Source: a virus. Taken from it: a stretch of 37,955 bases of DNA. Where the stretch lies: positions 1 to 37,955 of the IMG/VR virus record IMGVR_UViG_3300032288_002421; one strand, given 5' to 3'. Positions 20,345 through 34,383 of this stretch are shown here, one piece after another (within the stretch, counting starts at the first letter, position 1; every line of letters begins with the position of its first letter). The position numbers and the translations under genes were made by a program. The notes under the pieces were generated by a model. It ran no database searches. It was not told where the DNA came from and saw nothing but the letters and a program-made list of their open reading frames with translations.

Positions 20345-20522
20345 GCTCCCGGGAAATCACACGCTGAAAATCCTGGCCGATCCGCTCCCAATCACCGCGC
20401 ATTGCCTCGCTGTCCGATCGATTCGGCATGGCGTGCGTGTGCGGAGGATAGATACAAGCGGACGCGCCAAGCCCTGCAAGGACCGCCTGCATAAAGCGCA
20501 TCCGTGGCTTGACTCGTTTCAT
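20325..20522 (-). CDS. Small putative exported protein
   Basis: 65 residues starting MKRVKPRMRFMQAVLAGLGA. The basic N-terminus followed by a hydrophobic stretch up to GASACIY looks like a signal peptide, possibly a weak lipobox at the Cys (the -3 position is not Leu). The rest is charged and helical. It overlaps the DUF2335 gene by 20 nt. No family recognised. Confidence 0.5.
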   Translation of the reverse strand: MKRVKPRMRFMQAVLAGLGASACIYPPHTHAMPNRSDSEAMRGDWERIGQDFQRVISRERVKAFP

Positions 20523-20624
20523 TTGGCCCCCGTCATGGCTGGGAATTGAGCGAGCGCAGTGTACACCCCCTCCCGCCGCCCCGCCACCCTGGGACTGGCG
20601 GCACACCCAGCGAGGCAGCGCCCC

Positions 20625-20984
20625 CTAGCCTTTGGCCTTGGCGTGCCTGTGGCCGGCCTTGTCGGCCTCTAGCGCGTCCAAAGCGGTCTCGAGCAGTACC
20701 TGCTTGCCAGTGGGCCCCAGCGCCCGGTAGGCCGCCAGCAGCCGCCGCTCGTCATCGCTAGGCCACTCCGGGCGCTCGCCGCTTTCCCGCATCCCCAACA
20801 GCCAGCGGGCGGCCACCTCCAACTCCGTCGCCATCGCCCACACCGTTCGGGCCGAGGGCACGTCGTTTCCCCGCTCCCACCGGGCCACGCTGGACCGGGA
20901 CGCCCCGATCCGCTGGGCCAGCTCGTCCTGCGATAGTTTTGCCTTGCGCCGAGCCTGGCGCAACCGCTGCGCGAATACCTTCAT
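20625..20984 (-). CDS. Second HTH repressor candidate (XRE type)
   Basis: 119 residues. A classic XRE HTH: FAQRLRQARRKAKLSQDELAQRIGASRSSVARWERG (4-39). The C-terminal part (SDDERRLLAAYRALGPTGKQVLLETALDALEADK) is a short helical tail frequent in small phage repressors. No peptidase domain. It is divergent from the rightward operon and its operators. The start is preceded by CAACAACAACAGCAGC with no Shine-Dalgarno, so initiation efficiency or mode is unclear. Either this or the protein at 18378 may be the lysogeny repressor. Confidence 0.8.
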   Translation of the reverse strand: MKVFAQRLRQARRKAKLSQDELAQRIGASRSSVARWERGNDVPSARTVWAMATELEVAARWLLGMRESGERPEWPSDDERRLLAAYRALGPTGKQVLLETALDALEADKAGHRHAKAKG

Positions 20985-21203
20985 TGCCGTGCTGCTGTTG
21001 TTGTTGTTCGGTTCTGCTACACAGGACTTTACAAATTGTCCGGTTTTAGCGCAATCCCGCCCCCGCGCTGCCCATAACCGAACATTTCGCCGCCGACAAA
21101 AAGACGCCGCCCACGCAGCTCGGGGCCATGGCGCCCGCCAAATATCCACTAAATGGCTGATTAATAGCGGTTTTATGCCCGCTGAAAAAATAGTTGCAGA
21201 AAT

Positions 21204-21218
21204 ACTAGTCGCGCTATT
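21204..21218. promoter_or_regulatory. Operator site O1 at the rightward promoter
   Basis: ACTAGTCGCGCTATT, matching the minus-strand site at 18330-18344 at 14 of 15 positions. It touches the -35 box exactly as at the leftward promoter. Confidence 0.78.
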
Positions 21219-21245
21219 GACTTGGCGAACTAGCGGCGCTATTGT
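21217..21245 (+). promoter_or_regulatory. Rightward early promoter (PL-like)
   Basis: -35 TTGACT at 21217-21222 and -10 TATTGT at 21240-21245 with a 17-bp spacer. Predicted start near 21252, giving a leader of about 38 nt before the ATG at 21290. Operators overlap both boxes. It drives the recombination and integration operon. Confidence 0.77.
21229..21243. promoter_or_regulatory. Operator site O2 at the rightward promoter
   Basis: ACTAGCGGCGCTATT, 25 bp after the first operator, lying in the spacer and running into the -10. It matches the minus-strand reading of 18304-18318 at 13 of 15 positions. Confidence 0.76.
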
Positions 21246-21289
21246 TCTCCCTGTCGCCCCACCGCACGGGGCAAACAAGGGGAAACGAG

Positions 21290-21460
21290 ATGAACGCAAA
21301 GCAAGCCACCTGCCGTTGCCGCGCCTACAAGTTCCCGCACCGCCTGCTGTCCGGCAAGTGCGCGGACCGCGAGGAGCGCGGCGGCAACCGCACCAAGCGC
21401 GACAACCGGGCCGACGATCCGCGCCACGGGCAAGCCGCCGACATCAACCGATTTCGTTAG
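21290..21460 (+). CDS. Small basic protein, first gene of the rightward operon
   Basis: 56 residues with AAGGGGAAACGAG before the ATG. It begins MNAKQATCRCRAYKFPHR and has three Cys (two close together, the third in GKCADRE) plus one His, which might form a small metal site. The second half is Arg/Asp-rich. Similar short Cys-His proteins lead early operons in many phages. No known function. Confidence 0.62.
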   Translation: MNAKQATCRCRAYKFPHRLLSGKCADREERGGNRTKRDNRADDPRHGQAADINRFR

Positions 21461-21468
21461 GAGCGAAT

Positions 21469-21747
21469 ATGAAGATCAAAGCATGCGTGTACGCCGTTTA
21501 TCGCCCGTGGTCGAAGTCCTACGACTACATCGTCGGCATTGTCGGCATGGGTGAAGGCTGGATTCCGGTGTGGGAGCAGGACATCGAGTTCGACGCGCCC
21601 CCCGACGAAACGCTGCAGGCAGGCACCGTCGCCGCTTACCGCGCCGAGCAGCAGCGCATCCGCGCCGAAGCCGAGGCCAAGGTCGCCAACCTGGAGCAGA
21701 CCATCCGCGACATGCAGTGCATCGAGGACAAGCGGGTGGCCGCATGA
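21469..21747 (+). CDS. Small protein, unknown function
   Basis: 92 residues with AGGAGCG before the ATG. The N-terminal half has aromatic beta-like segments (VYAVYRPWSKSYDYIVGIVG); the C-terminal half is one long helix (YRAEQQRIRAEAEAKVANLEQ). Overlaps the next gene by ATGA. No family recognised. Confidence 0.65.
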   Translation: MKIKACVYAVYRPWSKSYDYIVGIVGMGEGWIPVWEQDIEFDAPPDETLQAGTVAAYRAEQQRIRAEAEAKVANLEQTIRDMQCIEDKRVAA

Positions 21748-21959
21748 TCCGCGCCCTGCAAGTCCGTTGGCTACGCTGGAAGCTGCAGATGCAAATCGAG
21801 CATATCCAGTGGGTGCGCGAGCAGCGTGCGTGGGGCGCCGTGGCCGAGCAGCAGGCCGAGGAAGCCTACCGCCGCACCTACGCCGACCTGACCGTGCTGG
21901 AGGCCCCGCAGCGCCTGATCCCGCAGGGCTCCACCAGCATGAAGCGGAGGGTGGCATGA
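21744..21959 (+). CDS. Small helical protein, unknown function
   Basis: 71 residues rich in Arg, Trp and Gln (IRALQVRWLRWKLQMQIEHI), probably two long helices. Coupled to both neighbours by ATGA overlaps. No recognised family. Confidence 0.6.
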   Translation: MIRALQVRWLRWKLQMQIEHIQWVREQRAWGAVAEQQAEEAYRRTYADLTVLEAPQRLIPQGSTSMKRRVA

Positions 21960-22039
21960 CCGCCCGCGACAAACCCGTCGCCCTGCCGCTGATCGCCTTG
22001 GCCCTGCTGCTTGTCCTGATCCTGCAGGGGGCGGCATGA
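21956..22039 (+). CDS. 27-residue single-pass membrane microprotein
   Basis: MTARDKPVA followed by a hydrophobic run LPLIALALLLVLILQ and GAA. It overlaps the genes on both sides by ATGA junctions, like every gene around it, which argues that it is translated. One membrane-spanning helix with a short basic N-terminus. Function unknown. Confidence 0.6.
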   Translation: MTARDKPVALPLIALALLLVLILQGAA

Positions 22040-22233
22040 GCGGCGCCGACTTCTGGCAAGCGCACGAACTCCAACTGGAGCGCGAGGACGCCATCGCCGA
22101 CGTGCTGCGCACGATCGCCGCCGCCGGCATGCGCGTCGAAGCGGACTACCTGGCCGCCGAGCTGGGGGTCCCGTACCGAGCAGTTGAACAGCGCACCTAT
22201 CCCTTGTGGGATGGGCAATGCGCACCCTTCTGA
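22036..22233 (+). CDS. Small protein, unknown function
   Basis: 65 residues: MSGADFWQAHELQLEREDA with a helix, then IAAAGMRVEADYLAAELGVP that could be a short HTH-like pair of helices. Overlaps the preceding microprotein by 4 nt and is 11 nt before the ATPase gene. Function not recognised. Confidence 0.6.
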   Translation: MSGADFWQAHELQLEREDAIADVLRTIAAAGMRVEADYLAAELGVPYRAVEQRTYPLWDGQCAPF

Positions 22234-22244
22234 GGAAACCCAAA

Positions 22245-23120
22245 ATGGCACTCACCATTCGCAAGGCAGAACGCAAGAAAGCCAAGCTCCGGCTCGGCAT
22301 CGCAGCGCCCTCTGGCGCGGGCAAGACCTACGGCGCCCTGCAACTGGCCTTTGGGCTGGGCGGCAAGATCGGCTTGATCGACACCGAACACGGCAGCGGC
22401 GACCTGTACGCCCACCTCGGCGAGTACGACGTGATCGGGCTGGAAGCGCCCTACACCACCGCCAAGTACCTCGAGGCGATCCACGCCTTCGAAGCCGCCG
22501 GCTATGACGTGATCATCATCGACAGTCTGTCCCACGCGTGGGCGGGCGACGGCGGCCTGCTGGACAAGCAGGGCAAGTTGGCCGACCGCGGTACGAACAG
22601 CTTCGCCGCCTGGCGGACCATCACGCCGGAGCACAACGCGCTGGTGGACGCCATGCTGCAGTCGCCCGCGCACATCGTGGCGACCATGCGGGCCAAACAG
22701 GACTACGTGCTGGAGGTCAACGACAAGGGCAAGCAGATGCCCAAGAAAGTCGGCCTCGCCCCGGTCCAGCGCGAGGGCATGGAGTACGAGTTCACCGTGA
22801 TGCTGGACATTGACATGCACCACGTCGCCAGCGCCAGCAAGGACCGCACGTCCATGTTTGACGGGCAGATGTTCAAGATCACGCCCGCCACCGGCAAGCA
22901 GTTGCGCGAGTGGCTAGACAGCGGCACCGAGGTCCAGCGGCTGGATGACAAGCAGCTTGGCATCCTGCGCGACCTGCTGGCCTCGCTGGAGGCGTCCGAG
23001 GCCGAGTTCTGCAAGGTCGCCAAGGTGGCGCGGCTGGAGGACGTGCCAGCCGACAAGTTCGAATCCATGCGCGGCTATCTCCAAAAGCGGCTGGACGCCG
23101 CGCAGCGGGAGGCCGCGTAA
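22245..23120 (+). CDS. Sak4-like RecA-fold ATPase (single-strand annealing recombinase)
   Basis: 291 residues from the ATG with GAGGAAA upstream. Walker A APSGAGKTY (21-29), LIDTEHGSGD, Walker B YDVIIIDSLSHAW (D93) and QSPAHIVATMRAKQDY fit the phage AAA_24 / Sak4 family. The C-terminal 80 residues are helical. Sak4 proteins are RecA-like recombinases that work with SSB; here an SSB gene follows two genes later, which supports the call. It would promote annealing repair and replication-linked recombination of phage DNA. Confidence 0.82.
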   Translation: MALTIRKAERKKAKLRLGIAAPSGAGKTYGALQLAFGLGGKIGLIDTEHGSGDLYAHLGEYDVIGLEAPYTTAKYLEAIHAFEAAGYDVIIIDSLSHAWAGDGGLLDKQGKLADRGTNSFAAWRTITPEHNALVDAMLQSPAHIVATMRAKQDYVLEVNDKGKQMPKKVGLAPVQREGMEYEFTVMLDIDMHHVASASKDRTSMFDGQMFKITPATGKQLREWLDSGTEVQRLDDKQLGILRDLLASLEASEAEFCKVAKVARLEDVPADKFESMRGYLQKRLDAAQREAA

Positions 23121-23626
23121 TGGGCACGAACCTGTCGCTGTACGCCCTCACGGGTGAGTACCTGGCCGCCGCCGACAAACTGGCCGAGTTGGATCTGGAC
23201 GAGCAGACGGTCGCCGACACGCTGGAGGGCCTTGCTGGGACGCTGGAGGTGAAGGCCACCAATGTCGCCATGGTGGTGCGCAACCTGGACGCCACCGCCG
23301 AGGCCATCCGCCAGGCCGAGGCGGACATGGCGGCGCGGCGCAAGGCCATCCAAGCGCGGGCCGAGCGCGTCCGGGCCTACCTGCTGGAGAACATGGAACG
23401 CGCCGGCATCACCAAGATCGAGTCCCCGCATTTCGCGCTGACCGTGCGCAAGAACCCGCCCTCGGTCGCCATCGTGAGCGAGGCCGACCTGCCGCCCGAG
23501 TTCCTGCGCACCCCGCCGCCACCGGCTCCCACGCCGGACAAAAAGGCCATCGCCGAGGCCATCAAGGCGGGGCGCGACGTTCCCGGCGCACACCTGCAAA
23601 CCACCAATCGCTTGGAGATACGCTAA
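23120..23626 (+). CDS. Gp157-like protein
   Basis: 168 residues. It begins LSLYALTGEYLAAADKLAEL and has a central coiled-coil-like helix (EAIRQAEADMAARRKAIQAR), then YLLENMERAGITKIESPHFALTVRKNPPSV, the hallmark of the siphovirus Gp157 family. The C-terminus has a Pro-rich linker and GRDVPGAHLQT. Family function is uncertain; an early report linked Gp157 to phage resistance in streptococci. The gene starts in a TAATG overlap with the ATPase gene and precedes ssb. Confidence 0.85.
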   Translation: MGTNLSLYALTGEYLAAADKLAELDLDEQTVADTLEGLAGTLEVKATNVAMVVRNLDATAEAIRQAEADMAARRKAIQARAERVRAYLLENMERAGITKIESPHFALTVRKNPPSVAIVSEADLPPEFLRTPPPPAPTPDKKAIAEAIKAGRDVPGAHLQTTNRLEIR

Positions 23627-24082
23627 ATGGCATCCGTCAATAAAGTCATCATCGTGGGCCACCTCGGGCGCGATCCAGAAACCCGCCACCTGCCTAGCGG
23701 CGAGGCCGTCACCAATGTGACCGTCGCCACCTCGGAGTCGTGGAAGGACAAGGCGACCGGCGAGAAGCAGGAACGCACCGAGTGGCACCGCGTCGGGTTC
23801 TTCGGGCGCCTGGCGGAAGTGGCCGGCGAGTACCTCAAGAAGGGCTCGCTGGTCTACGTCGAGGGCAGCCTGCAGACGCGCAAGTGGACCGACAAGGAAG
23901 GCGTGGAGAAGTACACCACCGAGATCCGCGCCGATCGCATGCAGATGCTGGGCGGCAAGACCGAGCGCCAGGGCAGCGGCGAGCAGCGGCCCGCAGCCAA
24001 GCCCGCAGCACCGGCCCGCAGCGCGGCGGCTGCACCGGCTGGCGGCGGGTTTGGTGACATGGACAACGATTTGCCCTTCTGA
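23627..24082 (+). CDS. ssb: Single-stranded DNA-binding protein
   Basis: 151 residues. OB-fold domain 1-105 starting [18 protein letters not shown], with [43 protein letters not shown] and [14 protein letters not shown] flexible Gln/Ala/Pro linker follows, then the conserved acidic tip DNDLPF that binds partner proteins. Start directly after the Gp157 stop. Likely partner of the Sak4-like recombinase and NinB. Confidence 0.95.
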
Positions 24083-24084
24083 CC

Positions 24085-24471
24085 ATGACAACCGCCCGCA
24101 CCTTCACCATCACCGACGAGCGCCAGCTCGGGTTCGCGCTGGGGTTCATTCCCAAGCAGCCATTGCCGCTGGAGGTGACGGTGCGCCCGTACTCGCCCAC
24201 GCGCACCAGCGTGCAGAACAGGCGGCTGTGGGCGTTGCATGGCAAGGCGTCGGAGTTCACCGGGTACACGCCCGAGGAATTGCACGAAGAAGCCCTTTGC
24301 AGGCACTTCGGGTATCGGGAGGTGGTGCGGGTCAATCCCTGGACGAAGGAGTCCGAGACCAAACGCGAGCCGTTGAAGCGCAGCAGCCAGCGCAATCGCA
24401 AGGAGTTCGCCGCCTTCATGGAGGCGACGGAACTTTTTTACGCCACCGAGTTGGGCGTGTGGCTTGAATGA
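24085..24471 (+). CDS. ninB: NinB-like recombination protein
   Basis: 128 residues. The segments VTVRPYSPTRTSVQNRRLWAL, HEEALCRHFGY, REPLKRSSQRNRKEFAAFME and ATELGVWL correspond to NinB/Orf of lambda-like phages, which binds SSB and single-stranded DNA and replaces RecFOR functions. Its position right after ssb is consistent. Starts 2 nt after the ssb stop. Confidence 0.85.
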   Translation: MTTARTFTITDERQLGFALGFIPKQPLPLEVTVRPYSPTRTSVQNRRLWALHGKASEFTGYTPEELHEEALCRHFGYREVVRVNPWTKESETKREPLKRSSQRNRKEFAAFMEATELFYATELGVWLE

Positions 24472-24547
24472 ACACCGGGCGGCGAGCGGCGCAACCCCTT
24501 CGCCGTGGGCCCACAAGGCCCTGCCGCCCACCCTATTGGAGCAACTG

Positions 24548-24745
24548 ATGATGATGAGCGTGTTCGCGTTCACCAAGCCCTGCCGGTGCGGCGCGGCGCC
24601 CGTTCTATGCAACATCGGCGGGCGCGTGTATTTCGAACCGTCGTGCGACACACCAGCCTGCAAGGAGATTGCGCCGCAACCCGTGCGCCAGGGAGTGGGC
24701 GCGGCAGACAAGGCGCGGGAAAACTGGAATAGGAGCGTGGGATGA
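24548..24745 (+). CDS. Lar-like zinc-ribbon protein (restriction alleviation family)
   Basis: 65 residues from the ATG at 24548 with GGAG 6-7 nt upstream; a longer in-frame start at 24464 overlaps ninB but has a poorer site. KPCRCGAAPVL, EPSCDTPACKE and a final ADKARENWNRS reproduce the Cys pairs and the 'A-W-N-R' ending of Lar-like proteins. Lar of Rac modulates type I restriction. Whether this one does is unknown, since many phage zinc ribbons share the pattern. Confidence 0.65.
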   Translation: MMMSVFAFTKPCRCGAAPVLCNIGGRVYFEPSCDTPACKEIAPQPVRQGVGAADKARENWNRSVG

Positions 24746-25068
24746 GTCTCCGATCCGACATAGAGAAGGCGCGGGAACTGGATGCGAAGATCAAAGAATC
24801 CGCCCGTGATCCCCGAGTGCAAACCGGACACGCGATGGACTTGTACGCCCACTACCGCACCCTTGTCCCCCGGCTGATTGAACAGATGGAGGCGATGGAA
24901 GGGGCGTTGGTTCGCGTAAATGGTCGCGCAACGCTAGTGCTTGAGGAACTCGACGAGATGAATGGCTCTGGCGTTGAGACACCGGAAAAGCTGGACGTGG
25001 CGCGAGGGATGCTTAAGGCAGAACTTGAGGAACTGGAATTTGCCCTCGCGGCGCTGGACAAGGAGTAA
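24742..25068 (+). CDS. Helical protein, unknown function
   Basis: 108 residues, almost all helix with heptad-like spacing (IEKARELDAKIKESARD, LVPRLIEQMEAMEGALVRV). It ends LAALDKE, shared with the next two genes. Overlaps the Lar-like gene by 4 nt. Codon use is less GC-rich than the recombination genes upstream. No family. Confidence 0.62.
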   Translation: MSLRSDIEKARELDAKIKESARDPRVQTGHAMDLYAHYRTLVPRLIEQMEAMEGALVRVNGRATLVLEELDEMNGSGVETPEKLDVARGMLKAELEELEFALAALDKE

Positions 25069-25073
25069 TCATG
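25053..25073 (+). repeat. Junction repeat copy 1 (GCTGGACAAGGAGTAATCATG type)
   Basis: The last codons (LDKE), stop and Shine-Dalgarno (AAGGAG) of one gene and the start of the next form one repeated element. Copies at 25053-25073 and 25286-25306 are identical over 21 bases, and a third at about 25620-25642 differs only after GGAGTA. Confidence 0.85.
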
Positions 25074-25301
25074 CTGCTTGAGCAGGCAGAACTTAGCCGA
25101 GTCGGGTTGCTGAAACGGATGCTAACGCCGACACGCCTGATTGTTCCCGCAGCCCTTCACGCGCAATTTGTTAGCGAGGTTGTTGGTCGATTTGGCCCTT
25201 TGCCTATGGGCTTGGCGAATCTGCATGTGAACGGGATGAAGGTCATTTTCTCCAGCGACGCGACGGAGATTGAAGCCGCGTTTGTGCTGGACAAGGAGTA
25301 A
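25071..25301 (+). CDS. Small protein, unknown function
   Basis: 76 residues: LLEQAELSRVGLLKRMLTP, then IVPAALHAQFVSEVVGRFG, ending AAFVLDKE. The Shine-Dalgarno lies within the previous gene's final codons. No family recognised. Part of the run of low-conservation genes between ninB and the excisionase. Confidence 0.62.
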   Translation: MLLEQAELSRVGLLKRMLTPTRLIVPAALHAQFVSEVVGRFGPLPMGLANLHVNGMKVIFSSDATEIEAAFVLDKE

Positions 25302-25306
25302 TCATG
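25286..25306 (+). repeat. Junction repeat copy 2
   Basis: Identical to copy 1 over 21 bases, again fusing the LDKE-stop end, the AAGGAG ribosome site and the next ATG. Confidence 0.85.
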
Positions 25307-25636
25307 GATAGTTACCAAGCAATCTACGACGCGGTACGCAGCCGAATCACGAATGCAGACATTGGCAGCGCGGTGGAGTCTGCTTTTCGTGAGGCCAACC
25401 TGTCGCACTACGCAGAACAGGCAATGCACAACATCACATACACCTTTGCGGAGTATCAGCGCCCTTCAGTCCTGTACCGCCCAAGGCTGTCCCTTGATGG
25501 AAATATGTGGATTGCCCTGTATGGAGACAACATAGCGGAAGGCTGCTGCGGATGCGGTGAGTCGCCGGAATTGGCGATGGCAGCATTTGACAAGGAATGG
25601 TGCGCCAAGTATGCCAAAAAGCTGGACAAGGAGTAG
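25304..25636 (+). CDS. Small protein, unknown function
   Basis: 110 residues. AIYDAVRSRITNADIGSAVE helix, then aromatic-rich region YTFAEYQRPSVLYRPRLSL and EGCCGCGESPELAMAAFDKEW. Three Cys in CCGC may bind metal. It ends KKLDKE. Similar 'Y-x-A-V-R-S-R' starts occur in unknown phage proteins of early operons. No function. Confidence 0.62.
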   Translation: MDSYQAIYDAVRSRITNADIGSAVESAFREANLSHYAEQAMHNITYTFAEYQRPSVLYRPRLSLDGNMWIALYGDNIAEGCCGCGESPELAMAAFDKEWCAKYAKKLDKE

Positions 25637-25642
25637 GACATG
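25620..25642 (+). repeat. Junction repeat copy 3 (diverged at the end)
   Basis: AGCTGGACAAGGAGTAGGACATG. The same LDKE-stop-ribosome-site-start arrangement with TAG in place of TAA and a slightly different spacer. Confidence 0.75.
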
Positions 25643-26050
25643 GATACGCAATGCGCAGAAACGCCGCTAGTTGATCTGCTGCGCGGCATTCCCAAAGATC
25701 ACCGCATCACAGTCCCTATGATGTGTGATGAGGATGGGCGCGAGATTGGGCACAGCATGATTCCTGTGGGCCACCTTATGCACCGTGCGGCTGATGACCT
25801 CGCAGCGGCACAGGCGCGGGTGGAATGGCTGGAAGGAACGCTTCTCGCTTCCAACGCCGCAAGCGCCGAATTGCTCAAACAACTTAAGTCCGCCGAGTCC
25901 CGGCTAGCCACAGCCGAGGCCGATGCGCTGAGGCGGGCGGCGGAAATATGTGACAGGGCAGACTTGTTCGCCAACAGCGAAGGAATGCGCGAAGGAGCGC
26001 GGGAAATAAAAGCCGCAATCCTCGCACTGATCCTTAAGGAGGCCAAATGA
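25640..26050 (+). CDS. Coiled-coil protein, unknown function
   Basis: 136 residues. The N-terminal 45 residues are mixed (DLLRGIPKDHRITVPMMCDE). Residues 50-105 form a coiled coil (DDLAAAQARVEWLEGTLLAS, LLKQLKSAESRLATAEADA). The end AREIKAAILALILKEA is a common closing helix of phage 'ead/ea'-type early proteins. No known function. Confidence 0.62.
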   Translation: MDTQCAETPLVDLLRGIPKDHRITVPMMCDEDGREIGHSMIPVGHLMHRAADDLAAAQARVEWLEGTLLASNAASAELLKQLKSAESRLATAEADALRRAAEICDRADLFANSEGMREGAREIKAAILALILKEAK

Positions 26051-26382
26051 CCCCCGCAGACCTGACCGCAGCGCGGGAGTTGGCGCAGTCGCTTAACGCC
26101 CCTGTGTATTGGTTTCGTGGAACGGCATCCGGCAAGCTCATTGATGACCATTGCCCAAAGGATGCCGCCGCCCTGCTCAACCGACTAGCCGACGAGGTGG
26201 AGGCGCTGAGGAAGGATGCGGAGATGCTGCGTTTCCTGCTTGGAGATGCGGACAGCCTTAGCGGGCGATTCAACACGATTTATATGCGTTGGAGCGGGGA
26301 AGGCGGTATCGCGGGGTTTAAGGCAGAAATCCAAAGATGGGTTGATGCAAATGCAGCCATGAAGGAGCAGAGCAATGGATAG
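26047..26382 (+). CDS. Helical protein, ead/ea-like early protein
   Basis: 111 residues. CPKDAAALLNRLADEVEALRKDAEMLRFLLGD resembles the common 'LRYLR/MLRFLL' segment of phage Ea8.5/ead-like proteins of unknown function. Overlaps the previous gene by ATGA. Starts a run of small genes ending at the excisionase. Confidence 0.62.
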   Translation: MTPADLTAARELAQSLNAPVYWFRGTASGKLIDDHCPKDAAALLNRLADEVEALRKDAEMLRFLLGDADSLSGRFNTIYMRWSGEGGIAGFKAEIQRWVDANAAMKEQSNG

Positions 26383-26431
26383 CGCCATCTGCACCGCCGT
26401 GGCGAACATGCAGGAGGCTAAGGGTGGCTAA
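26375..26431 (+). CDS. 18-codon small ORF before the zinc-ribbon gene
   Basis: MDSAICTAVANMQEAKGG, starting inside the end of the previous gene and ending 8 nt inside the next. Its last codons are the first copy of the GGCTAAGGGTGGCT repeat and include AGGAGG, which serves as ribosome site for the next GTG. It could act as a coupling ORF or be chance. Confidence 0.35.
   Translation: MDSAICTAVANMQEAKGG
26418..26431 (+). repeat. Direct repeat flanking the zinc-ribbon cassette, left copy
   Basis: GGCTAAGGGTGGCT, carrying the GTG start of the zinc-ribbon gene. The same 14 bases recur about 198 bp later at the GTG start of the excisionase-like gene. Position is by eye and may be off by a base or two. 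Confidence 0.75.
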
Positions 26432-26630
26432 ATCCTGCGCCCATTGCGGTTCCGTGTTCCCGCACCTGATCTACAAAACCGGCTGCGAGTGGACAACCAA
26501 ACCCGACGAACTGGCCTATCAATGTCCGTGCGGGAGCGTCAAATTCTGCCTGCTCAAATCCGGCGACGTTGAATGCGCCAAATGCACGGAGAAAGCGCCT
26601 TACACGGTCAAGGGGGCTAAGGGTGGCTGA
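26424..26630 (+). CDS. Zinc-ribbon protein, unknown function
   Basis: 68 residues from GTG, with AGGAGG upstream. VAKSCAHCGSVFPH, then QCPCGSVKFCLL and VECAKCTEKAP: three CxxC/CxC pairs suggest one or two zinc sites. The gene is bracketed by 14-bp direct repeats and starts and ends in the same GTGGCT context, so it behaves as a cassette. Function unknown. Confidence 0.68.
   Translation: MAKSCAHCGSVFPHLIYKTGCEWTTKPDELAYQCPCGSVKFCLLKSGDVECAKCTEKAPYTVKGAKGG
26616..26629 (+). repeat. Direct repeat flanking the zinc-ribbon cassette, right copy
   Basis: GGCTAAGGGTGGCT at the junction of the zinc-ribbon gene and the excisionase-like gene. Recombination between the two copies would remove the zinc-ribbon gene exactly and leave an intact start for the next gene. 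Confidence 0.75.
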
Positions 26631-26964
26631 CCTGCTGGACATCGCAGCCGCCGCCGCCAGCCTGGACGTGAGCGAGCGCACCATCCGGCGCGAAATCGCA
26701 GCCGGTCGCCTTGCCGTGGTCAAAATCCGGGGAAGGATTAAACTGCACTCCGCCGAACTCGCCCGCTACATCGCCGACAACACCACATGCCGATCCGCAA
26801 ACGTGGCACCCGCTACCAAGTCCGCGTGCAGTCTGCCGGTGGTCGGATTGCGCGAACTTTTGGGTCTAGGCGAGACGCGCAGGAGTTTGAAGCCCGTTAC
26901 CGTCAGCGGGTCGCAGATCATCGGGTTGGACGAGCGCCGGCAGTCGGCATCGAGGAAGCCCTAA
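26623..26964 (+). CDS. Excisionase-like HTH protein with long overlap into integrase
   Basis: 113 residues from GTG overlapping the preceding stop. The first 55 residues are a MerR/Xis-type winged helix: LLDIAAAAASLDVSERTIRREIAAGRLAVVKIRGRIKLHSAELARYI. The remaining 58 residues are read from the other frame of the integrase start and have no recognisable domain. Located directly before int, it probably steers excision. The 178-nt overlap is far longer than the usual 4-20 nt here. Confidence 0.75.
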   Translation: MADLLDIAAAAASLDVSERTIRREIAAGRLAVVKIRGRIKLHSAELARYIADNTTCRSANVAPATKSACSLPVVGLRELLGLGETRRSLKPVTVSGSQIIGLDERRQSASRKP

Positions 26965-27779
26965 CCCGCTGGCTGACCGGCGAGGCCACCGGCCTGCGAT
27001 CGCACCGCAACCTGCTGGACAAGGCCCGCACCATCTACCCCTACATCGTCGGGCGCCCGCTGTCCGAGGTCGCCGACGTGGCCGAGGAAATCGCCGCGGC
27101 TGGCCTGCGCCAAGGGCTCGCCCCCGCCACCGTCAACCGACGCTTGGCCATCCTGCGGCGCGTGGCAAACCTGGCTTACAAACGCTGGGGGCTGCTTGAG
27201 CAGCCGCTAGGTCAGAGAATTACCATGGTCCCGGGCGAGCGGGCGCGGACCACGCACCTGACGCCTGCCGAGGTCTACAAGGTCGCCCAAGCCGCGCCGA
27301 CGCCTGCCGGCAGGGATTGCATCCTGCTTGCCGCCATGTCTGGCCTGCGCCTGTCCGAGCTGCTCCACCCGGATCTGCGCCGGGACGGGAACGCCCTGGT
27401 GGTGCCGCCCGGGAAGAATGGCAAGTCGCGGCTGGTCCCGCTGCCGCCCGAAGCCGCCCGCCTGCCGGTGCCGGTGACCCTGACGGAACGGGAGCTGCGC
27501 CGGGAATGGGACGCTGCAAGGCCACGGGCGGGCCTACAGGGCGTTCGGTGGCACGACCTACGCCATACCTACGCCACGCTGCTGATCGGCTCTGGCGCTG
27601 ATCTGGCGGCTGTGCGCGACCTTCTAGGCCACTCCCACATCGGAGTGACGTCGAAATACCTGCATGCCGCCCTTCCCAGCCTGACCCGGGCGGTGGCCGG
27701 TTTCCCTAGCCTGGCGCCGGCGGCGCGGGACAAGAGCGGGACAGCGGGACAGCGCAAACTCCGCAAGAAAGCGGCCTAA
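26787..27779 (+). CDS. int: Tyrosine-recombinase integrase
   Basis: 330 residues. N-terminal arm-binding-type segment MPIRKRGTRYQVRV, core-binding domain about 52-145, catalytic domain 155-310 with R188 (SGLRLSELL), K213, H256 and R259 (HDLRHTYAT), H282 (LGHSH) and nucleophile Y291 (TSKYLHA). The C-terminal end is basic (RKLRKKAA). Integrates phage DNA at a tRNA gene; attP lies 20 bp downstream. The start lies inside the excisionase-like gene. Confidence 0.95.
   Translation: MPIRKRGTRYQVRVQSAGGRIARTFGSRRDAQEFEARYRQRVADHRVGRAPAVGIEEALTRWLTGEATGLRSHRNLLDKARTIYPYIVGRPLSEVADVAEEIAAAGLRQGLAPATVNRRLAILRRVANLAYKRWGLLEQPLGQRITMVPGERARTTHLTPAEVYKVAQAAPTPAGRDCILLAAMSGLRLSELLHPDLRRDGNALVVPPGKNGKSRLVPLPPEAARLPVPVTLTERELRREWDAARPRAGLQGVRWHDLRHTYATLLIGSGADLAAVRDLLGHSHIGVTSKYLHAALPSLTRAVAGFPSLAPAARDKSGTAGQRKLRKKAA
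27725..27752 (+). repeat. Arm-type repeats, left of attP (three copies)
   Basis: GCGGGACAG-type 9-mers at 27725-27733 (one or two mismatches), 27736-27744 and 27744-27752, inside the last codons of int. Three more copies lie on the other side of the tRNA-like core. This is the layout of integrase arm-binding sites. Confidence 0.7.
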
Positions 27780-27798
27780 GTGGCTGATTTCCCTATGG

Positions 27799-27851
27799 AG
27801 TACCCGGGGCGGGGATCGAACCCGCATGCCTTGCGGCGAGGGATTTTAAGT
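27799..27851 (-). other. attP core: 3' half of tRNA-Leu (UAA anticodon loop to acceptor)
   Basis: On the minus strand the sequence reads CTTAAAATCCC (anticodon loop and 3' stem), a variable arm, then GCGGGTTCGATCCCCGC (T stem-loop) and CCCGGGTAC (acceptor strand). The 5' half of the tRNA, including any D loop, is absent, so it is not a functional tRNA. This is the usual core for phages that integrate into the 3' end of a tRNA gene and restore it. Exact core limits cannot be set without the host sequence. Confidence 0.85.
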
Positions 27852-27914
27852 GCCCGGGGCCACGTTTGGCAGGGCGGTCTTCATAGGGCAGCGCCGGTCA
27901 GAAGCACCCGGAAT

Positions 27915-27944
27915 CTGTCCCGCCGCGGGACAGGCGCGGGACAG
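27915..27944 (+). repeat. Arm-type repeats, right of attP (three copies)
   Basis: CTGTCCCGC (inverted) at 27915-27923 and GCGGGACAG at 27925-27933 and 27936-27944. Same 9-mer as left of the core. The inverted and first direct copies form a near-palindrome. Confidence 0.7.
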
Positions 27945-27946
27945 GC

Positions 27947-28048
27947 CTAGCCGCCCACCAGCCAACACCGGGCGACCACGACCAGGCCGGCCAGCGCCGC
28001 CAGCCACAGCAGGATCAAGGCGCTGTCGGGGATGGGGTCGGTGGGCAT
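27947..28048 (-). CDS. 33-residue putative membrane microprotein
   Basis: MPTDPIPDSALILLWLAALAGLVVVARCWLVGG: a Pro-rich lead and one hydrophobic helix. It is short with only a weak GGA ahead of the ATG, in the otherwise non-coding attP region. It could be chance, but the clear hydrophobic helix ending in a basic residue is suggestive. Region 27852-28111 otherwise holds only the arm repeats. Confidence 0.35.
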   Translation of the reverse strand: MPTDPIPDSALILLWLAALAGLVVVARCWLVGG

Positions 28049-28111
28049 GGATTTCCGATCGGGCGTATTATTGTCGTTCAACGTGCCGCCTGACACGCAT
28101 GGGGAGTGCAG

Positions 28112-28333
28112 ATGGACAAATACGATGAAGCGATTGCGTTCTTGAAAGGCGTCAATCCGGGCAGTTACTTTGACGAGTGCGCGGCGTTGATGGAAGAGTT
28201 GCTTGCCCAAGTTGAGGCCCAGCTTGAAGCCGAGAGGTGCGAGCAATTTCAGCCATCGCAAGAACACATCGACAACCTGAAGCAAACGGAAGCCGCGGCG
28301 AGGTCTTACGCAAAGTTACGCGGCCTGCTGTAG
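28112..28333 (+). CDS. Small acidic protein, unknown function
   Basis: 73 residues with GGGGAG before the ATG. MDKYDEAIAFLKGVNPGSYF then a long helix (CAALMEELLAQVEAQLEAE) and QEHIDNLKQTEAAARSYAK. Separate from the integrase operon, with its own upstream gap. Its TAG is immediately followed by the stop of the convergent late gene. No family recognised. Confidence 0.68.
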   Translation: MDKYDEAIAFLKGVNPGSYFDECAALMEELLAQVEAQLEAERCEQFQPSQEHIDNLKQTEAAARSYAKLRGLL

Positions 28334-30958
28334 TCATCGCTTTTCTTCGGCCATAGCGTTGACGTTATAGCCAAGCGCGGCAAGTGCCCCGGCTACAGTC
28401 ATGCCTTTGCGGATCATATCGACCGCCTTGGGCCAGTCGGCCTCGCTGAAGAATCGCCGAGTCTCTTGAATATCGCCACGGGCGCCGCCCATCAAACTGT
28501 CGCGCAAAGCCTTGGCGCGAATCGCCGCACGCACCGCTTCGGACTCGCCTAGATTTTGGGACACGGTCGGTGGCAAATCGGCAAACGCTCGCAACATTCC
28601 GCTGGTCGCCTCGCCACTATACGGAGCGGTGGGCATCAATCCGTCCGGTCCGCGCTTCATAACGCCAGGCACATAGCCCGTACTGGAAATTGCCATTTCA
28701 CGCGTTGCGCCTGGTAGTGCGTTATCAATCCGATTACCAGCGGTTCTCATTATTTCGTTGAGTGCATTGGGACTTGCGCTTGGGTTGTACGGAAACACCA
28801 ACGCGCCCCGATTGGTAGCGGTAACGGCGAACCCGCTAGCCGCATCATCCAAGCCCGCAAGCTTGAGGGCCACAGACTGGGTGGGCGGGCCATACGGCAT
28901 TGTTTCGCGCAACCGTGCCGCGTCCAAGTTAGCTTTGCTGCTAGCTTCACCCAGGATGTTGTTGATCTGACTGAGTTGCTCTGCGGTTGGCAAAACACCA
29001 GCACTTGGATCGTTCAACCTTCCGGGGTTTATGTTTCGAGTATCAAGCACCACAGAGTTCTTTCCCTTGACGCTTGCCATGGTGTTGGGCAGGTTGTAAG
29101 CGCCAGCCTCTTGCGCGTCCATTAGGGCGCGGAACTGCTCTGCTGTGCTCATCACCCGGCTCGACATGTCTGAGATGCGTCCGCCGCCGCCACCCGTTGG
29201 GAAGTCCATCAATGGGCGTGCAATCGTCATCGGGTTGGTCTCGACGCCGCCCATGCTGTTGATGTAAAAGCCACTCGCCTCACGGGACGGCAGTTGCCTG
29301 TACCCCAGCGCACCGTAGATGGCATCACGGTTTCCGGCGCCGACCTGCGGGTAACTGTTCAGAAATGAATCCGGTGCAGGCAGGTCCCAGCGGCCCGTCC
29401 GGCTATATAAAAGCTTTTCCTCTGGCGTCATGTTCAACGCTTGCCGAACGTGGTTCAGCGATGCGCCTGGAATCGCCTCATGCGTGGCCGAGGCAGCGTG
29501 CTTGTACATGTAATCGCGTGCGGTGTTGTTCGCATCCCGTATGGCGGCCTTGATGCCCTCCAGCTCGTCGCCACTAAAACGCCCGGCCTTGCCCCTGCTG
29601 TACAAGTCCTGGGCCTTGCCGTAGACCCAAGGCACCTCCTGAATGTGCGGGCCGGCCCAATCGGTGCGGCCACCAATCGCAGCCTTATTGGCGCGATCGA
29701 CTTGCAGCGCCGTCTCGGCATCCATGAACGGGTGCATCGTGTCGGACACACCCGCCTTCCATGGATTGCCTTGCGGATCGGTATAGTGCATGCCTTGGGC
29801 GCGGCGAAAATCGTTCACGCCAAACAGGCCTTCGTTGGGGATGCGCGGGTCGTTCTTGTTGGCGTACTCCCCGATTTTGAAACCCATGTTTGCCGGTCGA
29901 TCGTTGGCAACGGCTGTATCAAGGGTTCGCATCGGTGCGCTACGGTAAGCCATCTCCGGCGCACCAGCCACACGACTGTTTAAGTGCTTGAGCGCAAAAC
30001 CCAGTTCAGACTCGGGGCTGACTCCCGCCGAATACACACCGTGCTGCTCGAGGGTGCGGTTAAGTTGATACGGTTCGCTGCTCTCAGAAATTCCCTGCTT
30101 TGCTCTGTCATACCATGTGCCAAGCCGGTCAGGATCTGCCAACCGAACGGCCTCAACCGAATCAGCAAAGTCTTTATCCATGCTTCGGCGCATGGCGCCA
30201 AGCCCTTGGCCGCCGGTTACCGTGCGGGGCGCTCCGACGTAGCCGCTATTCGTAGGCTTGAGATGCTCGCCGGCTCGAGCAGCCCTCAACACAGCCTCGT
30301 CGCCCTGGCTGATAGCCATCTCGCGGTAAAAGTCTGGCGCTACCTTGCTGCGTGGCCCGTTTGACTTGACCGTCTTGGCAGATTCTTCCGCGACATTGTC
30401 TGCACTTTCCCGCGCCATCTTCTCGACTTTTTTGGCACGCGAGGCTTCCTGCACATGCTTCTGTCCGAACTTCTCTATAACAGCCTGCTCTTCTGCCGTG
30501 CGGGCCACCTTGGCCTGTGGAATCAAATCGGCCAACTTGGCACGGCGTCCCGCGGCGTTAGCGCCCAGCGCCTTGGCAGGAACGGAGCCGGACGTGGCAA
30601 CGCCGCCACCCATCATGTTCAATGCAAAGTTTGCCGCTTCTTCTGGACCGTTGAACGCGCTGCGCCAGGCGCCACTTTCGTCAACATCCAATCCACCGCC
30701 CAACGAACGAGCCGGGGCAGTAAATGCATTGACGGCGCCCGCCAGAATGGACGGCAATGCCCAGCTTCGCTCGTTCATCACAGAGCCTGGCATTGTGTCC
30801 TGATAGGGCAGCAGCATCGCACGCCCTTCCATCGAAAGCGGATCTTGAAGCCTGTCCATCACCCCGGACAGCTTGTTCCGCTTCGGCTCGTTCGCCAGTA
30901 CCGCATTGACCACGCGCCGCAGCGCGTTCTTGTCGTTGGGCAGGTCAGCCACGCTCAT
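28334..30958 (-). CDS. Large virion-type protein of unknown function, end of late operon
   Basis: 874 residues with GGGAG before the ATG. Mostly polar, rich in Ala/Asn/Arg/Gly, with long helical parts (FGQKHVQEASRAKKVEKMA) and a C-terminal hydrophobic helix (MTVAGALAALGYNVNAMA). Contains repeated MPT/GP/NP patches and no catalytic motif that I can identify. It follows lysozyme, where podophages may carry a late ejected protein. The base composition is less GC-rich than the head genes, suggesting a separate history. Could be an ejected polyvalent-type protein; undetermined. Confidence 0.65.
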   Translation of the reverse strand: MSVADLPNDKNALRRVVNAVLANEPKRNKLSGVMDRLQDPLSMEGRAMLLPYQDTMPGSVMNERSWALPSILAGAVNAFTAPARSLGGGLDVDESGAWRSAFNGPEEAANFALNMMGGGVATSGSVPAKALGANAAGRRAKLADLIPQAKVARTAEEQAVIEKFGQKHVQEASRAKKVEKMARESADNVAEESAKTVKSNGPRSKVAPDFYREMAISQGDEAVLRAARAGEHLKPTNSGYVGAPRTVTGGQGLGAMRRSMDKDFADSVEAVRLADPDRLGTWYDRAKQGISESSEPYQLNRTLEQHGVYSAGVSPESELGFALKHLNSRVAGAPEMAYRSAPMRTLDTAVANDRPANMGFKIGEYANKNDPRIPNEGLFGVNDFRRAQGMHYTDPQGNPWKAGVSDTMHPFMDAETALQVDRANKAAIGGRTDWAGPHIQEVPWVYGKAQDLYSRGKAGRFSGDELEGIKAAIRDANNTARDYMYKHAASATHEAIPGASLNHVRQALNMTPEEKLLYSRTGRWDLPAPDSFLNSYPQVGAGNRDAIYGALGYRQLPSREASGFYINSMGGVETNPMTIARPLMDFPTGGGGGRISDMSSRVMSTAEQFRALMDAQEAGAYNLPNTMASVKGKNSVVLDTRNINPGRLNDPSAGVLPTAEQLSQINNILGEASSKANLDAARLRETMPYGPPTQSVALKLAGLDDAASGFAVTATNRGALVFPYNPSASPNALNEIMRTAGNRIDNALPGATREMAISSTGYVPGVMKRGPDGLMPTAPYSGEATSGMLRAFADLPPTVSQNLGESEAVRAAIRAKALRDSLMGGARGDIQETRRFFSEADWPKAVDMIRKGMTVAGALAALGYNVNAMAEEKR

Positions 30959-30964
30959 CTCCCG

Positions 30965-31390
30965 TCATGGCAGCAGCGCCGCTTCCGCAGCCCGCCGCAC
31001 CACCAGTCCCGGCAGCACTCGCCCGCCGCCACGCACCCACTTGCCGAACTCCTGCCGCGCCCCCGCCCAATCCTCGGCCAGCAGTCGCCGGCGCAACGTC
31101 GAGCCGCGGAACGCCGCCAGGCCGATGTTGTAGGCGAAGTCCGCCGCCGCGCACAGGACCGGCCCCGTCAGGTTTGGACACGCCGCCTGCACGCCTCGGG
31201 CGAACCGCAGCGCGTCCTGCTCCATGCGCTGGTCGGCGTAGGCTTGCGTCCAGGCGCGTCCGGGGAACACATCCGGGCCGGTGCTGCCCCAGCCGCACGT
31301 CCACACTCCAGCCGGGCAGATGTAGGGCGTGAGGCGGCAGCCTTCAAACCTCTTGATCAGCCGGTAGAGGTCGGCAAGGTCGGGCATCAT
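30965..31390 (-). CDS. Endolysin, GH24 lysozyme
   Basis: 141 residues from the ATG overlapping the upstream TGA. Catalytic pattern E16-x8-C25-x5-T31: IKRFEGCRL, YICPAGVWT, CGWGSTG. This is the Glu-Cys-Thr form of the T4/lambdoid lysozyme family (Cys in the usual Asp position). DFAYNIGLAAF and WVRGGGRVLPGLVVRRAAE are standard GH24 C-terminal segments. It lacks a signal peptide, so a holin is needed for access to the wall. Several membrane proteins precede it. Confidence 0.92.
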   Translation of the reverse strand: MMPDLADLYRLIKRFEGCRLTPYICPAGVWTCGWGSTGPDVFPGRAWTQAYADQRMEQDALRFARGVQAACPNLTGPVLCAAADFAYNIGLAAFRGSTLRRRLLAEDWAGARQEFGKWVRGGGRVLPGLVVRRAAEAALLP

Positions 31391-31857
31391 TTCCCGCGCC
31401 GCCCCAGCGCCCTGTCGGCAAAGAAAAACCCAATGATCACGCCCACCAGCTCCTTGTCCCAGTCGCTGGACACGAACCCGGCCTTGGCGAGCGCCAGCAC
31501 CCACAGCAGCAGCGCGATGGTCGCCGCCGCGGGCCGGATGCTGCCATTCCACGCGTCTACCCACCGCACGCCCGTGGGCACCGCAGCCGCCCGGATCCCG
31601 GCGATGAAGGCATCCGCGTCGGCCTTCTGCAGCGCCACATCGCCCGCCACCTGAATCTCGCGCACGCCAAGGTCGGATTGCAGCTTGATGCGGGCCATGT
31701 CGCGTTCGTGCCGCCCCGCCTCGAGTTCGGCCTGCAGGCGGGCCATCTCCAGTTCGTGGGCGTGGTCCTGGCGCTTCTGCATCCATGAGGCGACCTCGCC
31801 CCAGATCATGCGGAACACCGAGCCACCGAGGAACGAGAACAGCGCGGAGAAGATCAT
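31387..31857 (-). CDS. Membrane protein of the lysis cluster, possible 3TM holin
   Basis: 156 residues. The N-terminal hydrophobic part (IFSALFSFLGGSVFRMIWG) is followed by a long coiled coil (KRQDHAHELEMARLQAELEAGRHE), then two membrane helices (RPAAATIALLLWVLALAKAGF and LVGVIIGFFFADRALG). This resembles GTA-type 3TM holins. Its position directly upstream of lysozyme fits a lysis role, but other membrane proteins upstream compete for the holin label. Confidence 0.65.
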   Translation of the reverse strand: MIFSALFSFLGGSVFRMIWGEVASWMQKRQDHAHELEMARLQAELEAGRHERDMARIKLQSDLGVREIQVAGDVALQKADADAFIAGIRAAAVPTGVRWVDAWNGSIRPAAATIALLLWVLALAKAGFVSSDWDKELVGVIIGFFFADRALGRRGK

Positions 31858-31867
31858 GGCGATCCTT

Positions 31868-32164
31868 TCACGGTTGTGCGTCGGGGCTGCGCCAGGTGTG
31901 CCGTCCGGTGACGGCGAACCGGGCGAATCGGTACAGGTGGCGGGACATGAACCCTGCGGCGCCCACGGCCACGGCGACGGTCTCGGGGATGGGCTCGTAC
32001 TGCACCCCGTCCCACGCCCCGGTCAGCACCGCGGCGCTGGTCAGCATCAGCACGCCGAGGAACACCTTGCCGACGATGCCGTCCTCGTAGTGCGGCCACA
32101 TGATCAGAAAAACAGATACCACAAGAAGGACTGCGAGCGCGATTAGGTAGATTGTGCAGAGCAT
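31868..32164 (-). CDS. Small membrane protein of the lysis cluster
   Basis: 98 residues from the ATG at 32164. Helices IYLIALAVLLVVSVFLIMW, IVGKVFLGVLMLTSAAVL and PETVAVAVGAAGFM span the membrane; the C-terminus is basic. Similar three-helix phage proteins occur as holin-like or unknown. Starts just after the stop of the upstream membrane gene (TGACATG). Confidence 0.65.
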   Translation of the reverse strand: MLCTIYLIALAVLLVVSVFLIMWPHYEDGIVGKVFLGVLMLTSAAVLTGAWDGVQYEPIPETVAVAVGAAGFMSRHLYRFARFAVTGRHTWRSPDAQP

Positions 32165-32165
32165 G

Positions 32166-32495
32166 TCAGCCTCGGCGCGAGAACGCGGACGCAATTGCAG
32201 CTTTCCAGTCCGTCGTGGTGATCACCACGTAGACGGCGGACGCGAGCGACAGGCCAAACATGCCGATGAGGAAACCCAGCGCACCCACCGCCGAGTCGGA
32301 CAGGTGCCAGTATTCGACCACCAGGGGCGACACGTACCCGCCCGTGGCAGCGCCGCCGGCGATGGCGATCAGGCTGCCGGCGAACCCTTGCAGCTCTTTT
32401 ACGAAGCGCAAGGAGATCACCCCGCCAATGAACCCGGCGATGAACGGGGCCTTGGTCAAGCCGAACGCCGACAGGATTTCATCCAGCCAGTGCAT
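32166..32495 (-). CDS. Holin-like membrane protein
   Basis: 109 residues from the ATG at 32495. Starts MHWLDEILSAFGLTKA with a glycine-rich helix AGFIGGVISLRF, then GFAGSLIAIAGGAATGGYVS and VGALGFLIGMFGLSLASAVYVVI, ending with a basic tail. The plan of glycine-zipper helices plus charged tail is that of phage holins of the LydA type. A good candidate for the main holin. Confidence 0.68.
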   Translation of the reverse strand: MHWLDEILSAFGLTKAPFIAGFIGGVISLRFVKELQGFAGSLIAIAGGAATGGYVSPLVVEYWHLSDSAVGALGFLIGMFGLSLASAVYVVITTTDWKAAIASAFSRRG

Positions 32496-32497
32496 GG

Positions 32498-32692
32498 TTA
32501 TTTTTCCGAGATGGGCTGCGTGGTGACGAAGCGCAGAATCACGATGCCCACGGCGATCGCACAGCCGATGGCGGCCTGCGCCCACGCTGGCACAGGAAGC
32601 GCGAACACGAAGCCCTGCAGCACCGACAGCACCGCGATGGCGATGGCAAACCAGACGGTGCGCGAGCGCAATGCCTGGCTGATTGCGGTCAT
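32498..32692 (-). CDS. Small two-helix membrane protein
   Basis: 64 residues from the ATG at 32692. TVWFAIAIAVLSVLQGFVFAL and AAIGCAIAVGIVILRFV are two membrane helices. Could be a second holin or antiholin next to the larger candidate, 2 nt downstream. No family recognised. Confidence 0.6.
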   Translation of the reverse strand: MTAISQALRSRTVWFAIAIAVLSVLQGFVFALPVPAWAQAAIGCAIAVGIVILRFVTTQPISEK

Positions 32693-32931
32693 GCTTGCGC
32701 ACCCCATGCCGCGTCGGCGATGCGCTGAATGCGGGCGATTTCGTCCGCGCCGACCTCGGGCCATTGCATCTGCTTCAGGTTGGCGTTCACCGCCGCCATC
32801 TGCTCGGCAATGCTTGCGCCGTCGCGGGTGAACATCGTGCGGTGATGCGCCTTCCCAACCGGACTAGTCAGCGTGAAACGCACTTGCACGGTGGTGTCGG
32901 ACGGTATCTCGATCAGCGTGGAGATTTTCAT
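32689..32931 (-). CDS. Small protein between tail fibre and lysis genes
   Basis: 80 residues: MKISTLIEIPSDTTVQVRF with beta character, then AEQMAAVNANLKQMQWPEV and ARIQRIADAAW helices. It overlaps the downstream membrane gene by 4 nt and sits 9 nt after the fibre. Could be a fibre assembly factor by position, but nothing in the sequence shows this. Confidence 0.58.
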   Translation of the reverse strand: MKISTLIEIPSDTTVQVRFTLTSPVGKAHHRTMFTRDGASIAEQMAAVNANLKQMQWPEVGADEIARIQRIADAAWGAQA

Positions 32932-32940
32932 GGCGGTTCC

Positions 32941-34383
32941 TTATGCAGAGGCGGTGTAATTGAAAACGGTGCGCAGCGAATCGTTGGTGGTCCAAGTCAT
33001 CGGGATGGTCGCGTTGATCTGATTGCTGGTTCCATCGCCACGGTCAAAGATCATCGCGCCCGTGTTGTTCTGGCTAACCGGACCAAAGAAGTACCCGGTG
33101 CCGCTATCGGTGGCCTCCCACACGCCAGTTGGCAGTCCGTTGAGCGCCGACACACTCGCAAACGGCAGGCCAAGTTGCACCACGCCACCAAATGACGAGG
33201 TGCTGCCTAGAGAGAAGTTCGACCACACGGTGACTTGCGAGCCGACCTTGCGGTAAGTCCCGGTATTGGTGCCGTTTCCAGTGGTCATGTTGACGTTGGA
33301 GGGCGTGTACGTGCCTTCCTCGTAATCGTCCAGCGTGTTTGCATCGCTGCTGGCGTTTTGCGTGGCGGGGAACTTAATCTGTCCGGTAGGAAGGTTGCCG
33401 CCGACATACGGCCCGATGATGTTGAACTGCGTGCCGTCATACTCCACCGTGACCGGCACGTTCTGGCGAATCTCGCCGCCCACGCAAGCAGCGCCACCGC
33501 AGAACAGGTTCTTGGCGCCGAGCGAATCCACGTTGATGGTGGTCGCGCCCGTGTTGGTATTGGCCGGCACGAACGTGAACTGCTGCCCGGACACGTAGGA
33601 CGCCAGCGCAACCGGGGTCAGGGCCGCCGTGATGGTGTTGGTTCCAGCCACCGAGCCAAGCGTGCTTTGCGCGTTGCCAGCCAGCGTAATCACCCCCGAC
33701 GCATCCGGCACCGTCAGCGTGCGCGTGGTCGCGGTGGTGATGCTGGACAACTGGAATGCCAGCAGTTTGGACTTGTCGCTGTTGTCCATGAACAGCGCCG
33801 TGGAGTCCTGCAACACCGGGTATGACGGGTTCGTCGGCGTCAGCAGCCCGTAGGACACCGCCGACAGGCCAGAGTCCAGCACGCCCGAGTCGGACGCCAC
33901 CGTGACCGTGGTGATGCCGCCGCCGAACGAGGCCGCCGTGATCCGGCTGTAGACCGAGCCCGCCGTGTTCGTGGACAGCAGGCGCCGGCCCACCAGGCAG
34001 TTGGGCGTCTGATCGCCCGAGAACGAGAACTGCGTGGAGCTGATGTAAGTCGGCGTGAGGCCGGACGCCTGCCACTCGGACACCGACAGGGACACGTCGT
34101 TGATGCCGGTGACGTTATCCTCCGTCCAGATGGTCACGTCGGCGGGCGTCTTGAGGACGAACTTGGTCTGCCCGGTGGGCAGCCAGATCGGGTTGTCCGG
34201 CAGCCCCAGCGAGTTGAGGATGATCGGGTTCGCCTGCGCCGTGTTGCCGGTGCTGTCGGTGTAGGTCGTGCGCGGCGTGGTCGAGCCCGCAGCGTAGGTG
34301 TAGAGCTTCGCCAGGTTGCGCGGCACGCCAGAGGAATCGACCTGCTGCGAGTTGCCGATCGGCGAGAGGTAGACGGTGGGCAT
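32941..34383 (-). CDS. Tail fibre / receptor-binding protein
   Basis: 480 residues. The N-terminus (MPTVYLSPIGNSQQVDSSGV) and following LYTYAAGSTTPRTTYTDSTGNTAQAN block is the common phage virion-attachment beta domain. The central part is Thr/Ser/Asn/Gly-rich repeats. From about 345 (DANTLDDYEEGTYTPSNVN), DDYEEGTYTP is a frequent joint motif before a C-terminal receptor-binding domain. No sugar-cleaving motif is visible, so I call it fibre rather than tailspike. It follows the ejection genes and is the main candidate host-range gene. Confidence 0.82.
   Translation of the reverse strand: MPTVYLSPIGNSQQVDSSGVPRNLAKLYTYAAGSTTPRTTYTDSTGNTAQANPIILNSLGLPDNPIWLPTGQTKFVLKTPADVTIWTEDNVTGINDVSLSVSEWQASGLTPTYISSTQFSFSGDQTPNCLVGRRLLSTNTAGSVYSRITAASFGGGITTVTVASDSGVLDSGLSAVSYGLLTPTNPSYPVLQDSTALFMDNSDKSKLLAFQLSSITTATTRTLTVPDASGVITLAGNAQSTLGSVAGTNTITAALTPVALASYVSGQQFTFVPANTNTGATTINVDSLGAKNLFCGGAACVGGEIRQNVPVTVEYDGTQFNIIGPYVGGNLPTGQIKFPATQNASSDANTLDDYEEGTYTPSNVNMTTGNGTNTGTYRKVGSQVTVWSNFSLGSTSSFGGVVQLGLPFASVSALNGLPTGVWEATDSGTGYFFGPVSQNNTGAMIFDRGDGTSNQINATIPMTWTTNDSLRTVFNYTASA

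Follow-up and report, generated by a model that had tools for sequence, protein, structure and literature searches.

The region at positions 27725-27944 of the window (the whole stretch of viral DNA that was analysed, 37,955 bp) is very probably the attP site of a temperate phage, P22-like by its portal protein, whose lambda-type heterobivalent tyrosine integrase would target tRNA-Leu(UAA). Judging from the sequence, the phage most likely inserts through this site into a bacterial leucine-tRNA gene. The full attP layout with arm-type and core sites, proposed in an earlier note on this DNA, is supported by about 27 related integrase loci and by the attL and attR of a related prophage. What sequence and comparison show are the repeats and core, a layout conserved among relatives, an excess of IHF-like sites and the relative's attL and attR; from these we infer binding by the integrase (Int), the exact crossover and the phage's own attB. 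As the window also encodes the P22-like portal protein and an endolysin, its remainder belongs to a tailed phage, and a comparison of positions 20000-37955 with phage records gave no near DNA match. Feature coordinates are collected in Table 1.

Table 1. Features of the putative attP-int module, with positions in the window
Feature	Position	Strand	Basis or remark
Excisionase-like HTH ORF (xis candidate)	26569..26964	+	Pfam HTH_17 6e-9; PHROG 66 excisionase 1.4e-6
int, tyrosine integrase, 330 aa	26787..27779	+	PF00589 1e-16; PHROG 1 3.3e-40; Foldseek; catalytic residues
Left arm-type site 1 (putative)	27725..27733	+	GCGGGACAA, one mismatch; within codons 313-316; 11 bp from next copy
Left arm-type site 2 (putative)	27736..27744	+	Exact GCGGGACAG; coding
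Left arm-type site 3 (putative)	27744..27752	+	Exact GCGGGACAG; coding; one base in common with site 2
IHF-like site	27777..27789	-	AATCAGCCACTTA, 1 mismatch; end is the int TAA stop codon
attP core, 3' half of tRNA-Leu(UAA), anticodon loop to acceptor end	27800..27851	-	Alignment; L136 and L164 carry the same half
Anticodon-loop heptamer CTTAAAA, likely 7-bp overlap (crossover) region	27844..27850	-	Common to 3'-half and 5'-half carriers; relative's attL/attR
Right arm-type site 1 (putative)	27915..27923	-	GCGGGACAG, inverted
Right arm-type site 2 (putative)	27925..27933	+	Exact GCGGGACAG
Right arm-type site 3 (putative)	27936..27944	+	Exact GCGGGACAG; 11 bp from site 2

The 9-mer GCGGGACAG occurs in five exact copies and one copy with a single mismatch, all inside 27725-27944, with no further exact copy elsewhere in the 37,955 bp; among 2,029 third-order Markov shuffles of the window, five exact copies of any one 9-mer came to lie within 230 bp in a single case. 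The earlier note had counted six repeats, three in the last codons of int and three (one inverted) on the other side of a tRNA-like core, and both its count and its coordinates are correct. The 11-bp spacing characteristic of the family is kept only by the pairs 27725/27736 and 27925/27936, and the copies at 27744 and 27915, both of which break it, may be accessory sites. The copies at 27915 and 27925 together form a near-perfect 19-bp palindrome (27915-27933), which was rejected as an intrinsic terminator because no T-run is present there. The sole terminator-like site in a scan of 27600-28150 lies at 27829, within the tRNA half, and the predicted folding of RNA from 27770-27960 is unremarkable (z -0.48).

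The same plan recurs among the relatives, which are integrases about 39-55% identical, collected by scanning viral and bacterial contigs. A pair of repeats 11 bp apart at the end of int is followed by half a tRNA with its limit in the anticodon loop and by the same pair downstream, so that arms flank the core in the relatives and in the window alike, as in a lambda-type attP. Repeat sequence varies between lineages (for example GGGGCA, GTGGCGCA, GCGTCACA, GTGGCCCA, and CTGCACA, each present as one pair where int ends and another pair beyond the core), while left matches right within a phage. In zones that were picked after the first alignments had been viewed, repeats exactly 11 bp apart are present on the left in 25 of 27 cases and on the right in 19 of 24, a spacing that does not peak in control coding DNA, and left and right share a mean of 15.9 7-mers within a phage versus 7.0 between phages, a total reached by none of 10,000 permutations. 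As 11 bp is approximately one helical turn, the spacing would suit two Int arm-binding domains on the same face of the DNA. A 6-mer enrichment scan recovered mainly tRNA words.

Sites resembling the IHF consensus with one or no mismatch are about 15-fold enriched in the 200-bp zones after the int stop codon of the family (20 found versus about 1 expected, at a background of 0.05 per zone). The match in the window is unremarkable without the relatives, as six such matches were found there and 5.9 expected by chance. In the window and in three relatives (L162, L129, and L164), the TAA stop codon of int marks the start of the site.

The catalytic residues of a tyrosine recombinase (R188, K210, H256, R259, and Y291) are conserved in Int. 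Its structure model, built with 30 aligned relatives, has a mean pLDDT of 88.8 and finds lambda Int (PDB ID: 1z1b) as the top Foldseek match, and in a VIA-align 2 comparison residues 1-305 align with 5j0n_F (Z 14.9, rmsd 5.6). Residues 3-46 are modelled as three strands and a helix; the alignment with 5j0n_F starts at residue 1, while most of the structural matches do not cover this segment. By analogy with lambda Int, the N-terminal domain is expected to be the reader of the arm sites. The xis candidate lies just upstream, and its 3' part overlaps int out of frame by 178 nt (26787-26964). Overlapping ORFs upstream of int are present in all relatives checked (109-199 nt, exactly 190 nt in seven). 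The part of int covered by the overlap in the window encodes the N-terminal domain.

The core is 52 bp long and is the reverse complement of ACTTAAAATCCCTCGCCGCAAGGCATGCGGGTTCGATCCCCGCCCCGGGTAC, which contains, in order, an anticodon loop, a long variable arm, a T-arm and an acceptor end. ARAGORN finds complete tRNA-Leu(UAA) genes in related loci, and the core can be aligned to their 3' half, so that the earlier identification of a tRNA-Leu(UAA) 3' fragment at about 27799-27851 holds. Neither ARAGORN nor Rfam detects a complete tRNA in the window or recognizes the half, as expected for half a gene. The core is thus the part of a tRNA gene that ends at the anticodon loop, as in tRNA-targeting attP sites. 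Among the relatives, halves of tRNA-Leu(UAA) are accompanied by halves of tRNA-Lys(TTT) and tRNA-Ser(UGA), assigned by reading the anticodon loop and T-arm. In most of them it is a 3' half, in six the 5' half of tRNA-Leu(UAA); as the anticodon stem-loop is the only part common to both kinds of carrier, the crossover is probably located there.

The CCA is broken at the 3' end of the phage-borne tRNA half (27793-27802; GGGTA-CTCCA in the window, GGGTA-CTCA in L136, and GGGCA-TCA in L164) and intact in the Lys and Ser halves of relatives. After integration, the CCA of the restored tRNA may have to be supplied post-transcriptionally. An inverted pair, CTATG and CATAG (27794-27798 and 27882-27886), flanks the core with the same distance (88-89 bp) in L136 and L164 as in the window, and is possibly an additional protein site. 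The 5' half lies within the first 110 bases after int in L131, L132, L135, L137, L139, and L145. Located between the arm sites, it would upon integration place the rebuilt tRNA behind phage DNA; a simple scan revealed no sigma-70-like promoter in four of these six loci. Such 5' fragments are known and rare (159 islands, versus 3760 with 3' fragments; PMC4383910). A complete tRNA-Leu(CAA) adjoins a related int at L134:4008-4094, which suggests that the family may have used a second leucine tRNA too.

The lysogen junctions of the plan can be seen in Stenotrophomonas tumulicola, in which a duplicated 57-bp sequence, extending from the anticodon loop to the CCA, bounds a related prophage of about 43 kb. 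At one end the duplicate completes a tRNA-Leu(UAA) gene, at the other it forms a displaced 3' half beside int, and arm-like repeats are present at both ends, as expected for attL and attR. The host gene predicted by the earlier note for the window's own phage, a tRNA-Leu(UAA) with a matching 3' half, was not found: the exact 52-mer is absent from the genome contigs searched, its 51-mer and 37-mer from the viral contigs searched, and no match with up to three mismatches occurs in 398 genomes of one phylum.

A layout with half of the repeats in the last codons of int is common to about twenty related phages. Each of the three left repeats of the window is read in a frame of its own, giving ARDK, SGTA, and AGQ (residues 313-322), within a tail that is not conserved and is predicted to be disordered (model pLDDT about 50). 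In six relatives (L144, L146, L148, L160, L049, and L051) int stops 16 residues past the catalytic tyrosine, ahead of the repeats, whereas the tail measures 23-39 residues in the others. With relatives labelled by eye as coding or after-stop, two changes on the tree are needed, and in loci with clear pairs the calculated start of the repeats is about 48-68 nt past the tyrosine codon in both states; the repeats thus appear nearly fixed in place while the stop codon moved. The three frames, the disordered tail and the early stop in six relatives argue that the DNA sites dictate the Int tail, which is best read as their by-product. Of the earlier proposal that the C-terminus and its sites evolve together, the influence of the sites on the tail is retained, while the binding partnership is not. 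It is unlikely that the int frame was selected in this clade to span the P arm, such that Int on its own 3' codons and IHF on the stop codon would hinder transcription or translation of int and couple attP occupancy to Int supply. A literature search found no direct report of arm-type sites within int codons, which is not proof of absence.

The position of the left copies inside the int open frame, and the frequency of simple repeats in GC-rich DNA, might indicate a peptide or codon repeat at the protein level that matches the right repeats by chance. This reading, rejected by the three frames and by the permutation result, has a negligible probability; it also agrees poorly with the unconserved, disordered tail and with left-right sharing across the relatives. 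Another protein, such as Xis or a repressor, could bind the 9-mers in place of the arm-binding domain of Int, in an otherwise genuine attP. The palindrome would suit a dimeric regulator, and direct repeats near attP are the targets of many recombination directionality factors; yet the remaining copies are not palindromic, the Xis sites of lambda are confined to the P arm, and in most relatives the core has the same repeat to its left and right, paired at a spacing of one helical turn, all of which makes such a protein quite improbable. Finally, the core could be a degraded relic left by an earlier integration, in a phage that now integrates elsewhere or not at all. The missing host match and the broken CCA would be compatible with a relic, but int and the xis candidate are intact, the 52-bp half retains its T-arm and variable arm, and L136 and L164 keep the same half and layout, so that this explanation is very doubtful.

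For a functional attP with arm sites read by Int, the following course is proposed. The N-terminal domain of Int would bind the arm sites on both sides, and its catalytic domain the core at the tRNA-Leu(UAA) anticodon stem-loop, with IHF bending the DNA between arms and core (one of its presumed sites overlapping the int stop codon). Strand exchange, probably in the anticodon loop, would split the host tRNA gene, and the 3' half carried by the phage would make that gene whole again on the int side, the two genes lying tail to tail. The upstream HTH gene might act as Xis in excision. The int reading frame would extend through the P arm, and hence the left arm would be coding.

The attP-int module is compact and well bounded, and with about 27 relatives its arm sequence has diverged while the layout (11-bp pairs, IHF, anticodon crossover) is fixed. 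It therefore constitutes a natural data set on which N-terminal residues read which arm sequence. The relatives are also useful for picking integrases with distinct tRNA targets, and the left arm exemplifies a DNA-binding site that dictates a protein tail without being a protein feature.

Like the putative attP of the window, lambda attP and Int (NC_001416; PDB IDs: 1z1b, 1z1g, and 5j0n) combine a core flanked by arm-type sites, IHF sites between core and arms, xis upstream of int and the same Int fold. The lambda record annotates an Int-binding site at 27814-27854, inside the 3' end of int (27812-28882). The two systems differ in that the window core is a tRNA half, in contrast to that of lambda, and their arm sequences are unrelated; three full repeats lie in codons in the window, while the P' arm repeats of lambda mostly precede the int stop codon. 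The Cluster K mycobacteriophages CrimD and Pixie possess paired arm-type sites of about 11 bp around a tRNA or tmRNA core; arm sequence differs among related integrases, and Pixie has six sites, one of them inverted. These putative sites are described as flanking the core, the hosts are different, and coding overlap is not noted in the available part of that report (PMC3203893). In Mx8 and SSV the int coding region overlaps attP, as here (PMC6070905, PMC4383910); there the core itself is coding and integration alters the C-terminus of Mx8 Int, whereas in the window only arm sites are coding and Int would be unchanged. The tRNA-targeting islands and prophages catalogued by Islander, with anticodon-centred attP in 2083 islands and 3' fragments in 3760, the commonest type, share the anticodon-loop crossover and the carried 3' tRNA fragment, with no essential difference (PMC4383910). 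The site thus combines known elements: it is of the lambda type and of the tRNA anticodon-loop class, and its coding P arm is a habit of the lineage.
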